Notes under the pieces: model-generated | Told to the model about the DNA's origin: nothing | The model's input: the letters and a program-made list of their open reading frames with translations, nothing else | Databases searched by the model: none | IMG/VR virus record: IMGVR_UViG_3300032293_002112 | Span: 1-33,418 of that record | Source of the DNA: a virus | Length of the DNA stretch: 33,418 bases | Reading direction: 5' to 3' (one strand) | Made by a program: the position numbers and the translations under genes | Shown: piece after piece, positions 30,202 through 33,418 of the stretch | Layout: every line of letters starts with the position of its first letter | Position numbering within the stretch: position 1 is the first letter of the stretch

Positions 30202-30630
30202 ATGGTAAATGATTTTGAATCCATTGATAAAGCACTGAATACTGAAAGTAGTATCATTGAAGTTGATGCAAAGACATCGGATGTTGAATTAATAAAAACA
30301 ACTCCCGATGACATTCAAAAAGATTATGAATATAGTAGGGCACAATTATATTCACTTATTGAAAAAGGTCAAGAAACTTTGAATGGTATTATGGAACTGG
30401 CAGCAGAAACTGCTAGTCCAAGAGCATATGAGGTTGCTGGTCAAATTTTAAAAAGTGTTGGTGATACTGCAGATAAATTAATTGATCTTCAAAAGAAAAT
30501 GAGGGGAATTGAAGATGATAATGCTAAAACTACTAATAATGTGACCAATAATGCAGTGTTTGTTGGATCTACATCAGAATTGCAAAAATTACTGAAACAA
30601 GGTTTTCTAAATAATAAAGAGAAACCTTAA
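30202..30630 (+). CDS. 16: Small terminase subunit gp16
   Basis: gp16 recognises concatemeric phage DNA and regulates the large terminase during packaging. Length is 142 aa (T4 gp16 is 164). An acidic N-terminus contains the conserved D-Y-E-Y-S-R-A-Q-L-Y-S-L-I-E-K-G (starting at about residue 41). A central helix pair follows, with A-S-P-R-A-Y-E-V-A-G-Q-I-L-K-S and L-I-D-L-Q-K-K-M-R, the usual oligomerisation coiled coil. The C-terminus has N-N-A-V-F-V-G-S-T-S-E-L-Q-K-L-L-K, matching the family. In T4 the large terminase follows at once; here other genes intervene. Confidence 0.93.
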   Translation: MVNDFESIDKALNTESSIIEVDAKTSDVELIKTTPDDIQKDYEYSRAQLYSLIEKGQETLNGIMELAAETASPRAYEVAGQILKSVGDTADKLIDLQKKMRGIEDDNAKTTNNVTNNAVFVGSTSELQKLLKQGFLNNKEKP

Positions 30631-30638
30631 ATACATAA

Positions 30639-32624
30639 ATGCGACTGAAATCCCATAAAACAGTTGAACAAATTGCCAAAAAGCATCGTCTTGATGTTTC
30701 TTTTGTGAAGCATCAACTTGAAATGGGAATTCCAATTGAACATGAGCATACCCGCGATAAAGTTTTAGCAACTGATATTGCTCTTCAACATTTGGACGAA
30801 ATTCCAGATTATTATACTCGTTTGAAAAAAATGGAGGCGTCTGCTAAAAAAGAACATAAAAAGTTCAAAGATGTGAAAGAAGATGCAGTGACTGATCTTC
30901 AAAGAGGTATTGCAGAATTACCTGACGCCTCTTATGGATCTATTGATAATTTGATGAGACGCATTATGAAGAAAAGAAAAATGAGTGCTAAAAAACTTCA
31001 TAATGATTTTGTTGATAAGCATCATCAAACTCCAGATACTTGGGCAAAAAGAAACATGAAAGAAGATCTTCGACTTTGGTTTGGAAAAAATGATGAAGGT
31101 GGCGTTGGTGGTGGTGGATGGGATAGATATAACAGTAAAGGAGAGAGAATTGGCAAATGTGCGAAGGAAAATCCAAACGAACCGAAACCGAAATGCCTAA
31201 GCAAAGAGAAAGCATCCCAATTACGTTCTCAAGGGGGTGCAAAGGCGATTGCAAATGCCGTGACAAGAAAGAGGAAACAAGATCCAATATCGGATAGATC
31301 AGGTAAAGGAGGAAAACCGATCATGGTATCTAACAAAATTAAAGAAGAATATATTCAAGAAAAAAATGTACCGACAAATCCTTCACTTTGGTCTCGCATG
31401 AAGTCAAGAGCAAAATCAAAATTTGATGTTTATCCAAGTGCTTATGCAAACGGTTGGGCAGCAAAAGAATATAAAAAGGCAGGTGGTGGTTGGAAAACTA
31501 TTAATGAAAGTAATCTCACTCAAGAAGCAGCAAATGCAGCACAGCAAGCAGCGATTGCAATTAATATGAAGAAAAAAGGAATCAAACCAAAATCAGAAAT
31601 GAAAGAAGATTGTTGGGATGGTTATGAGCAAAAGGGTATGAAAAAGAAAGGTAAGAAAATGGTTCCAAATTGTGTACCAGTAAAAGAGGAGTATGGTATG
31701 AGATATTGTCCAAAATGTGCAAAAGAAGAAACTCGCAATGAATGTAAATATGGACCAAGGTATTGGGATATGTTCTCAATGCCAATTAATTTAAAGACGT
31801 ATACACCAAATACTCCACATCCTGGCAATTTTCCAGAATCATATGATCATGAGCACTCAATGGCTCGCTCAGAAATTTCCACAATTGTTTCTGCAGCAAA
31901 AAGACTTCGTAAAAAAATGAAAGGTGAGGGTAACATTGAGGCATGGGTTCAATCAAAAATTACTAAAGCAGCAGATTATCTTGACGCTGCTGCAGATTAT
32001 GTTGATAGTGGTGAGATGAAAGAACAGGTTGCAGATACTGATTCAATGTCAGATAAAAAACCCTTTGATATTGCTGTTGAAAAAATTATGAAAAGAAAGG
32101 ATAAAATGACTCCTAGACAAAGAATTGTTGCTTTGAAACAAGCAGGAAAACTTCAAGGAATTGATGAACAGCAAGTTGGTGGGTCTGTAAAATTAAAATC
32201 TGGGTCTGGTCTTGGAGGAGGAGTTCTTTCATATCCAGAAGGTAAAGCACCTAAAAAGCACGGAGATAAAGAACCAAAACTTCCCAGTCTTCAGCAAGCA
32301 CATTATGAACCAGAAAATGATCTAGTTGAATATTCAAATTGGAGAGCAGACTTTGGATTGTCTGAAGATTGGCAAAAAGTAAATCGTCAAGATAAAACTG
32401 ATGGATTAAGTCAAAAAGCAGTAAATGCTTATCGTCGTGAAAATCCTGGTTCAAAACTTCAAACTGCCGTAACTGAAAAGAAACCAAAAGGCAAAAGAGC
32501 AAAACGTCGCGCTAACTTCTGCCGTCGTATGTCGGGAATGAAAGATAAACTCACTTCCACAAAAACTGCAAGAGATCCAGACTCAAGAATCAACAAAGCA
32601 CTTCGTCGTTGGAACTGTAACTAA
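30639..32624 (+). CDS. Mosaic of phage DUF domains (DUF5661-, DUF5872- and DUF6321-like), 661 aa
   Basis: This Lys/Arg-rich protein looks assembled from separate small domains. Residues 1-66 are DUF5661-like (M-G-I-P-I-E-H-E-H-T at 29-38; H-L-D-E-I-P-D-Y-Y-T-R-L at 51-62). Residues 145-230 are DUF5872-like (W-D-R-Y-N-S-K-G-E-R-I-G-K-C174 and P-K-C186-L-S). Residues 250-285 hold W-S-R and V-Y-P-S-A-Y-A-N-G-W. Residues 325-347 hold C-W-D-G-Y-E and V-P-N-C-V-P. A C-P-K-C pair is at 357-360, W-V-Q-S-K-I-T-K-A-A-D-Y at 436-447, and a DUF6321-like end (N-F-C-R-R-M-S-G-M near 626-634; S-R-I-N-K-A-L-R-R-W-N-C at 649-660). Family names are from memory. It lies between gp16 and other late genes, so it is probably packaged or structural; function is unknown. 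Confidence 0.75.
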   Translation: MRLKSHKTVEQIAKKHRLDVSFVKHQLEMGIPIEHEHTRDKVLATDIALQHLDEIPDYYTRLKKMEASAKKEHKKFKDVKEDAVTDLQRGIAELPDASYGSIDNLMRRIMKKRKMSAKKLHNDFVDKHHQTPDTWAKRNMKEDLRLWFGKNDEGGVGGGGWDRYNSKGERIGKCAKENPNEPKPKCLSKEKASQLRSQGGAKAIANAVTRKRKQDPISDRSGKGGKPIMVSNKIKEEYIQEKNVPTNPSLWSRMKSRAKSKFDVYPSAYANGWAAKEYKKAGGGWKTINESNLTQEAANAAQQAAIAINMKKKGIKPKSEMKEDCWDGYEQKGMKKKGKKMVPNCVPVKEEYGMRYCPKCAKEETRNECKYGPRYWDMFSMPINLKTYTPNTPHPGNFPESYDHEHSMARSEISTIVSAAKRLRKKMKGEGNIEAWVQSKITKAADYLDAAADYVDSGEMKEQVADTDSMSDKKPFDIAVEKIMKRKDKMTPRQRIVALKQAGKLQGIDEQQVGGSVKLKSGSGLGGGVLSYPEGKAPKKHGDKEPKLPSLQQAHYEPENDLVEYSNWRADFGLSEDWQKVNRQDKTDGLSQKAVNAYRRENPGSKLQTAVTEKKPKGKRAKRRANFCRRMSGMKDKLTSTKTARDPDSRINKALRRWNCN

Positions 32625-32625
32625 A

Positions 32626-32937
32626 ATGAAATCATTTCAACAGTTTATTTCAGAAAGTATCAATATTGCCGGAAATTTTAACGGCAATCTTTATATGAAT
32701 TCTTCCCAATCAGAACCAGTAAAAGAATCTTTCCTTGCTGATGTAGTTTGGCAGGGTAAGATCTATCGCATGGAAGTTGAAGGTAAGATGATCAGCAAGA
32801 ATGAACTTACAGAACAACTTCAAGGTGAATATCCAGGAGCAATTGTTCATAACATTTATCCAGCATCTAACCAAAGTTCTTTAAAAATTAAAAAGACACA
32901 AAGATATCAACCAGAAAGATTGGCATGGGGTGAATAA
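32626..32937 (+). CDS. Candidate internal capsid protein with T4-type capsid-targeting N-terminus (103 aa)
   Basis: The protein begins M-K-S-F-Q-Q-F-I-S-E-S. T4 internal protein III carries a ten-residue capsid-targeting sequence (M-K-T-Y-Q-E-F-I-A-E) that is cut by the prohead protease gp21 after Glu in the pattern (L/I)-x-E. Here I-S-E10 fits that cleavage rule, and the ten residues match with mostly conservative changes. The body (about 36-80) contains D-V-V-W-Q-G-K-I-Y-R-M-E-V-E-G and N-I-Y-P, a compact alpha/beta segment I recall as recurrent in cyanomyovirus proteins. In T4 such proteins are packed in the head and injected with DNA. The gene starts one base after the previous stop and overlaps the next by one base. 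The role is inference from the leader. Confidence 0.75.
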   Translation: MKSFQQFISESINIAGNFNGNLYMNSSQSEPVKESFLADVVWQGKIYRMEVEGKMISKNELTEQLQGEYPGAIVHNIYPASNQSSLKIKKTQRYQPERLAWGE

Positions 32938-33418
32938 TGGCACAATTTAATAAAAGTACTCAAGATTTTTTAAATCAAGAGAGAACTCTTTTTGAAGTTA
33001 ATATGGTCGCCAATAAGAATGGCGAAGTAGTTACTGTTGATAATCCATTTCCAGTATCTCTTGGAAGTTCCAATATTACTATTAATGGTAATATTACAAT
33101 TCCAGGAATAGTAACAGTTACAAGCACTCCAGATAATCCAATTCATAATCACATAGTTGAAGTTGGGACAGGTGGAACATTAACAACTCCATATCTTCCA
33201 GTTGGGATTTCTACATTACTGAATACTGTAGGTATTGGAACCACAGGGCAAGTATCAATCAACCTCAACAATTCACCAGTCAGCACTTCAAACCCATTTC
33301 CAGTTACTGGAACAATGGGAATTTCTACATCATCAATAGTATCAGTTACTCTACCTTCAACATCAACTGACGCATTTGGTAGACAAAGAACTTCAAGTCC
33401 ATTAACACTTTTTGATAG
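32937..33418 (+). CDS. Large virion structural protein, 5' part only
   Basis: The ATG at 32937 overlaps the preceding stop (TAATG). The frame is open to the last base of the window, giving about 160 residues of an incomplete product. It opens M-A-Q-F-N-K-S-T-Q-D-F-L-N-Q-E-R-T-L-F, a start I associate with large cyanophage virion proteins found near the terminase genes. It continues with Ser/Thr/Gly-rich beta strands and G-I-G-T-T repeats. Just before the cut it has D-A-F-G-R-Q-R-T-S-S-P-L-T-L-F-D, a conserved motif of these structural proteins. Location in the particle is not known. Confidence 0.85.
   Translation, partial: MAQFNKSTQDFLNQERTLFEVNMVANKNGEVVTVDNPFPVSLGSSNITINGNITIPGIVTVTSTPDNPIHNHIVEVGTGGTLTTPYLPVGISTLLNTVGIGTTGQVSINLNNSPVSTSNPFPVTGTMGISTSSIVSVTLPSTSTDAFGRQRTSSPLTLFD

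Follow-up and report, generated by a model that had tools for sequence, protein, structure and literature searches.

The first ten residues of a 103-aa protein encoded in the window, i.e. the whole analyzed stretch of 33,418 bases, very probably function as a capsid-targeting sequence of the T4 kind. The window is a virus record whose neck, tail and packaging genes are T4-like. Cyanophages likely have a capsid-targeting system of their own that corresponds to that of T4 but carries a much larger set of cargo proteins. For the 103-aa protein itself, we infer targeting, cleavage, presence in the virion and injection: there is good inferential support for head targeting and for trimming behind Glu10, packaging and trimming of the protein are likely, and its injection is possible. 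The explanation that we consider probable as a whole is that of a leader-targeted, gp21-trimmed protein that would work inside the head together with an adjacent mosaic protein. If the leader is the packing signal, the T4 capsid-targeting system extends to one of the most abundant virus groups of the ocean. In the open-access literature, we found no account of capsid-targeting sequences in cyanophages, which were co-mentioned with such sequences only in the title of a reference.

The leader and its gene

The gene of the 103-aa protein occupies positions 32626..32937 (+), and its start at 32626..32655 (+; ATGAAATCATTTCAACAGTTTATTTCAGAA) encodes the leader MKSFQQFISE, followed by Ser11. At this position, an earlier note had described a capsid-targeting leader of T4 type that ends in a prohead-protease site, and on re-reading its coordinates, its sequence and the (L/I)-x-E site proved right, with I8-S9-E10 agreeing with the rule. 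The cleavage site I-S-E/S between Glu10 and Ser11 (32653..32658, +) is predicted from the T4 rule. The annotated start of the gene is credible, because the ATG lies 1 nt past the stop codon of the upstream gene, the stop codon of the gene overlaps the next ATG (TAATG), and the same start Met is found in 105 of 105 relatives. Among 72 distinct orthologues, F7, S9 and E10 are found without exception, position 4 is occupied by F or Y and position 8 by I, L or M. The leader codons vary synonymously among the orthologues, and the constraint therefore acts on the protein. According to mutations in T4 leaders, targeting depends on residues 4 and 7, and processing on residues 8 and 10 (PMC9026906). 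These are the positions that are kept in the 103-aa orthologues, and in the 103-aa protein F4 and F7 would thus be assigned to targeting, I8 and E10 to processing. AF2 predicts a helix for residues 4-11, with low confidence.

In this part of the window, the gene order is gp13, gp14, gp15, gp16, a 661-aa protein, the 103-aa gene, and a gene for a virion structural protein (PHROG 1645), which is cut by the window end and represented by its 5' part (32937..33416, +). The terminase small subunit gp16 (30202..30630, +) serves as syntenic anchor, and the 661-aa protein (30639..32624, +) is a basic (pI 9.7) mosaic of the PHROG 727 type that contains the modules DUF5661 (residues 10-66), DUF5872 (residues 245-284, a weak sub-threshold match) and DUF6321 (residues 584-658). 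Several phages keep the order gp16, mosaic, 103-aa gene, virion structural gene and gp17, albeit with insertions; an endonuclease VII-type gene that is not present in the window lies between the mosaic and the 103-aa gene in S-SRM01 (MW015081 126172-126582).

Over its full length, the 103-aa protein belongs to PHROG 1742, which is T4-GC 1019 in Syn33, with the profile matching residues 1-101 of 103 at an E-value of 7.1e-39. By tblastn, the protein was found in 139 phage records, all of Synechococcus or Prochlorococcus phages, and in hundreds of viral contigs. At a looser limit, the extra matches outside cyanophages were weak and partial, and confident matches to the family are thus restricted to cyanophages. 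Pfam searches gave no significant match for the 103-aa protein.

Recurrence of the leader and the gp21-type protease

Within the window, the 103-aa gene is the only gene with such a leader, but a search for further proteins that start with the same leader, as suggested in the earlier note, found it on many unrelated cyanophage families. In S-SRM01, four genes start with the strict form of the leader, and several leader genes are found in two contigs that carry the 103-aa gene (G001 and G002). In nine complete T4-like genomes, the regular expression for the leader starts 18 predicted genes, as compared to a total of about 0.085 expected after shuffling of residues 2-13 of every gene, and it matches none of the 711 internal Met-Lys sites of these genomes. 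As the motif is short and Met-Lys starts are common, one could suspect a chance likeness in a Lys- and Phe-rich N-terminus, but these two counts rule this out for all practical purposes. When searched as DNA pattern in 11 genomes, the leader gave 19 matches, and the reversed pattern gave one. In T4, P-SSM2 and S-SRM01, leader pairs ranked first or close to first in an all-against-all comparison of N-termini that used no preset motif; this test is weaker, because in four phages (Syn33, S-SCSM1, S-SKS1 and Syn9) leader pairs were absent or not above the null. A conservation that is merely lineage-specific was also considered and rejected, as the leader occurs on unrelated families.

The two halves of the leader can be separated. 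When families were chosen by residues 2-7 only, which resulted in 19 unrelated cyanophage families with three probably spurious ORFs kept in, a hydrophobic residue 8 together with Glu10 was found in ten of them, versus 2.3% of the other Met-Lys genes (P = 3e-12). The enrichment of the processing half does not depend on the targeting half. Of 12 unrelated leader families of cyanophages, 11 have A, S or T behind Glu10. In T4, which served as control, the same rule recovers IPI, IPII, IPIII and gp61.1. T4 gene 61.1 (NC_000866 19130-18966, -) encodes a hypothetical protein of 54 aa that begins with MKTFKEFIKED, a leader of the internal-protein type, and judged by this N-terminus gp61.1 may be a further T4 head protein.

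The processing half of the leader bears on a different reading, according to which the N-terminus is nothing but a helix that binds a neighboring structural protein, being neither packaging signal nor protease site. The conserved block indeed runs past residue 10 (E-S-[IV]-N-I-x-G-D-F-N-G), and structural genes abut the 103-aa gene on both sides. However, the same ten residues sit on dozens of unrelated proteins, many of them encoded far from the 103-aa locus and enzymes included, and together with the independent enrichment of the processing residues this renders the helix-only function very improbable.

T4 internal proteins IPI, IPII and IPIII are cut by gp21, and they share with the 103-aa protein the N-terminal ten-residue pattern M-K-[ST]-[FY]-x-x-F-[IL]-x-E with a small residue thereafter. 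As in the T4 system, the leader is common to proteins with unrelated bodies, and a gp21-type protease is encoded in the genomes: the protease family (PF03420, Peptidase_S77) is detected above the cut-off in 16 of 17 relatives, and the remaining one is a 68-kb fragment. The window is a 33-kb fragment and has no gp21 gene because it ends before that region. In S-SRM01, a gene between the portal and scaffold genes (MW015081 135233-135883) is annotated as ‘primosomal protein’ and matches the gp21 prohead protease family. In contrast to these likenesses, no relation was detected between the T4 internal proteins and the 103-aa protein, whose product is neutral and whose gene is part of the gp16-gp17 head/neck cluster.

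A sister leader, MK[ST]F.[QE]F[QR][ED], with Q or R as residue 8, occurs on further unrelated genes of S-SRM01 (MW015081; 81722, 82315, 83142 and 138614) and S-CAM9 (134099 and 141442), one of which adjoins the major capsid gene. Some leader-bearing proteins contain a second leader-like stretch internally, which is RSFLLFITEA in L208:3047-4303 (+) and KNFAQFMLEG in L274:2677-3564 (-), and these two proteins are possibly cut twice.

Tagged cargo and virion proteomes

How broad is the set of tagged proteins? When viral contigs were scanned for the leader as a DNA pattern with Glu-Ala at its end, at least 82 genes in at least 33 sequence clusters were identified. NMNAT was found at least 20 times, DUF5661-type mosaics and short YPGA proteins, which form one cluster, at least 11 times, GNAT acetyltransferases at least six times (e.g. 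L308, L326), DPBB-fold proteins at least five times (e.g. L210:16623-17036, L339), stand-alone DUF6321 proteins at least three times, and glucosaminidases at least twice (e.g. L318:6253-7065, -). Among the matches listed, there were also a DUF6267 protein (L291), a SAM-lyase-family protein, and many proteins without recognized family. In comparison to T4, the putative cargo set of the cyanophage relatives is thus much larger and includes enzymes. Virion kinases have been reported in cyanophages, and one leader-bearing protein of 240 aa without Pfam or PHROG match (L335:2453-3172, -) appears kinase-like by eye.

A link between leader and virion is seen with NMNAT/cytidylyltransferase, the product of a cyanophage core gene that is unrelated to the 103-aa protein. 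In three published proteomes, NMNAT was detected in the virions of S-SM1, S-SCSM1 and S-SZBM1, and in all three phages it carries the leader or a form that is one residue shorter (MKKFSAFLNE, MKSFLQFLKE and MRFRQFIIE, respectively). The genes are found at L267 from 1501 (S-SM1), L109:1820-3049 (S-SCSM1) and L271:14390-15478 (-; S-SZBM1), and S-SRM01 has a leader-bearing NMNAT as well (L194:5429-6751). A leader on NMNAT would explain why this enzyme has repeatedly been detected in cyanophage virion proteomes. The leader looks like a general way of packing proteins together with the DNA, and probably also of delivering them. To our knowledge, the set of cyanophage proteins that enter the host together with the DNA is largely uncharted. 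It could be read from genome sequences if the leader is the packing signal, and such a list would flag NMNAT, the SAM-lyase-family protein, the acetyltransferase, cell-wall enzymes and many uncharacterized proteins. In its widest form, this would mean that T4-like cyanophages possess a general delivery system in which a cleavable ten-residue tag loads dozens of exchangeable cargoes, the basic mosaics among them, into the head for injection, with the 103-aa protein being a packaged module and possibly a host-binding effector, and for this wide form we see slightly less than an even chance.

Leader-bearing proteins of the SAM-lyase family are candidates for packaged anti-restriction enzymes. One of them (L325:7160-7690, +) scores above the Pfam cut-off, and a second one (L216:11172-11726, -) has a sub-threshold match (E 1.5e-5, 25.4 bits versus a cut-off of 28); the latter is encoded on contig G001, which carries also the 103-aa gene. 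A SAM hydrolase has been detected in the virion of S-CREM2 (PMC10665884). Together with the SAM-lyase-family cargo, this gives some footing for anti-defence functions within the tagged system, albeit not for such a function of the 103-aa protein.

In case of the 103-aa protein, orthologues are absent from two virion lists, i.e. S-SCSM1 gp030 from a list of 45 proteins and S-SZBM1 gp085 from a list of 30 proteins. Their neighbors were found: counterparts of the PHROG 1645 protein were detected in virions of both phages, and the S-SCSM1 counterpart of the 661-aa mosaic is labelled as virion protein. Both neighbors of S-SCSM1 gp030 have the label ‘virion protein’, and gp030 is without it; this label apparently reflects detection by mass spectrometry and, as regards NMNAT and standard structural proteins, is consistent with the paper. 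In S-SZBM1, the downstream neighbor (424 aa, matched by length and order) was detected, and the 103-aa orthologue is missing from the table. A low copy number or a loss together with the core would possibly account for this. It could therefore be that the 103-aa protein is a transient core or assembly factor of the prohead, which is brought in by its leader and then destroyed or expelled during gp21-dependent maturation, never reaching the host. Apart from the missing orthologues with their detected neighbors, this agrees with the fact that T4 removes most of its core proteins likewise (PMC9026906). On the other hand, small proteins yield few peptides, with two tryptic peptides of S-SCSM1 gp030 and six of S-SZBM1 gp085 being suitable for mass spectrometry, and the T4 proteins with such a leader (IPI-III) are retained as internal virion proteins. 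We thus regard a purely transient role as rather unlikely, though as the most serious competitor to a protein that stays and works in the head.

The YPGA domain and the role of the 103-aa protein

Behind the leader, residues 11-34 (32656..32727, +; SINIAGNFNGNLYMNSSQSEPVKE) probably form a disordered linker, in agreement with the low AF2 confidence in this region (pLDDT mostly <50 over residues 8-31). Residues 35-79 (32728..32862, +) are predicted with a pLDDT of about 90 to adopt a beta-beta-alpha-beta arrangement with a Y-P-G-A motif, and this “YPGA domain” is the sole folded part of the protein in the AF2 model. A YPGA profile detected the domain in an 82-aa paralogue with the same leader (Sf-FS3; contigs L246-L258), inside large basic mosaics, some of them with DUF6321 or DUF5872 (L259-L265; S-SCSM1 gp029; S-CAM9), and also in mosaics that themselves begin with the leader. 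Of these, S-SCSM1 gp029 is labelled as virion protein. The 661-aa mosaic of the window has no YPGA domain according to this profile, but its relatives fuse modules of the DUF5661, DUF5872 and DUF6321 types to the domain, and a stand-alone DUF6321 protein with leader exists as well. Since mosaic virion proteins contain the YPGA domain too, the 103-aa protein gives the impression of a single module from this virion-protein set, equipped with a packing tag of its own. The mosaics are large, basic and multi-modular, whereas in the 103-aa protein the YPGA domain stands alone, and the predicted mature 93-aa product has a net charge of 0, which is unlike a DNA-binding protein.

The earlier note had also suggested an anti-defence role in the manner of T4 IPI*. 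More generally, the 93-aa product might be an injected host-takeover or anti-defence effector that binds a host target, e.g. the RNA polymerase, as T7 Gp2 does, or a nuclease, as in the case of IPI*. The leader is the tag of T4 effectors, other leader cargo includes a SAM-lyase-family protein, and T7 Gp2, an inhibitor of the host RNA polymerase, was the best Foldseek match in the PDB (E 0.14, probability 0.96) and tied best by VIA-align, where the predicted beta-beta-alpha-beta arrangement aligned with Z 4.4 and 2.6 A over 49 residues. However, no sequence similarity to T7 Gp2 was found, none of the Foldseek matches in the PDB had an E-value <0.001, and no VIA-align match reached Z >=5, with values of Z <8 possibly reflecting merely a common arrangement. 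Ribosomal proteins and phi29 p6 scored about equally well in VIA-align, and ribosomal proteins, phycobilisome chains and YkzG were the other weak Foldseek matches, with IPI* not being among the listed rows. With the family profile as query, the sequences of solved structures yielded nothing meaningful and no match to IPI*, and in BFVD the six matches at E <=0.001 were members of the own family, DUF6321 mosaics and unnamed entries. The anti-defence role of the 103-aa protein thus did not gain support, unlike the leader and its cleavage site, for which the key residues are kept, the leader recurs and gp21 is present in relatives. Mosaic virion proteins contain the YPGA domain as an embedded module, which suggests a part in the head or virion as readily as an effector function, and with the orthologues undetected in two virion proteomes we regard an effector that acts on the host as improbable.

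The favored mechanism of a trimmed protein that works in the head would proceed as follows. The 103-aa protein would be made together with the head and neck gene products, and the F4/F7 face of its leader would draw it into the prohead core. The gp21-type protease of the phage would then cut after Glu10 and leave the 93-aa product, consisting of the flexible linker and the small beta-beta-alpha-beta domain. Given that the YPGA domain and the adjacent mosaic draw on one module set, this product would most likely work together with the mosaic inside the head, be it as part of the core, associated with DNA, or co-ejected. Finally, the product would either leave with the core debris or be injected in low copy.

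The basic mosaics (window 30639-32624; L215, which is G001 164873-167065, -) are composed of recurring modules, namely DUF5661, RDWF..., WPSAYASG..., PNCV..., YPGA and DUF6321, and contain many I/L/V-x-E stretches between these modules. Judged by these stretches, the mosaics could be multiply cut by gp21.
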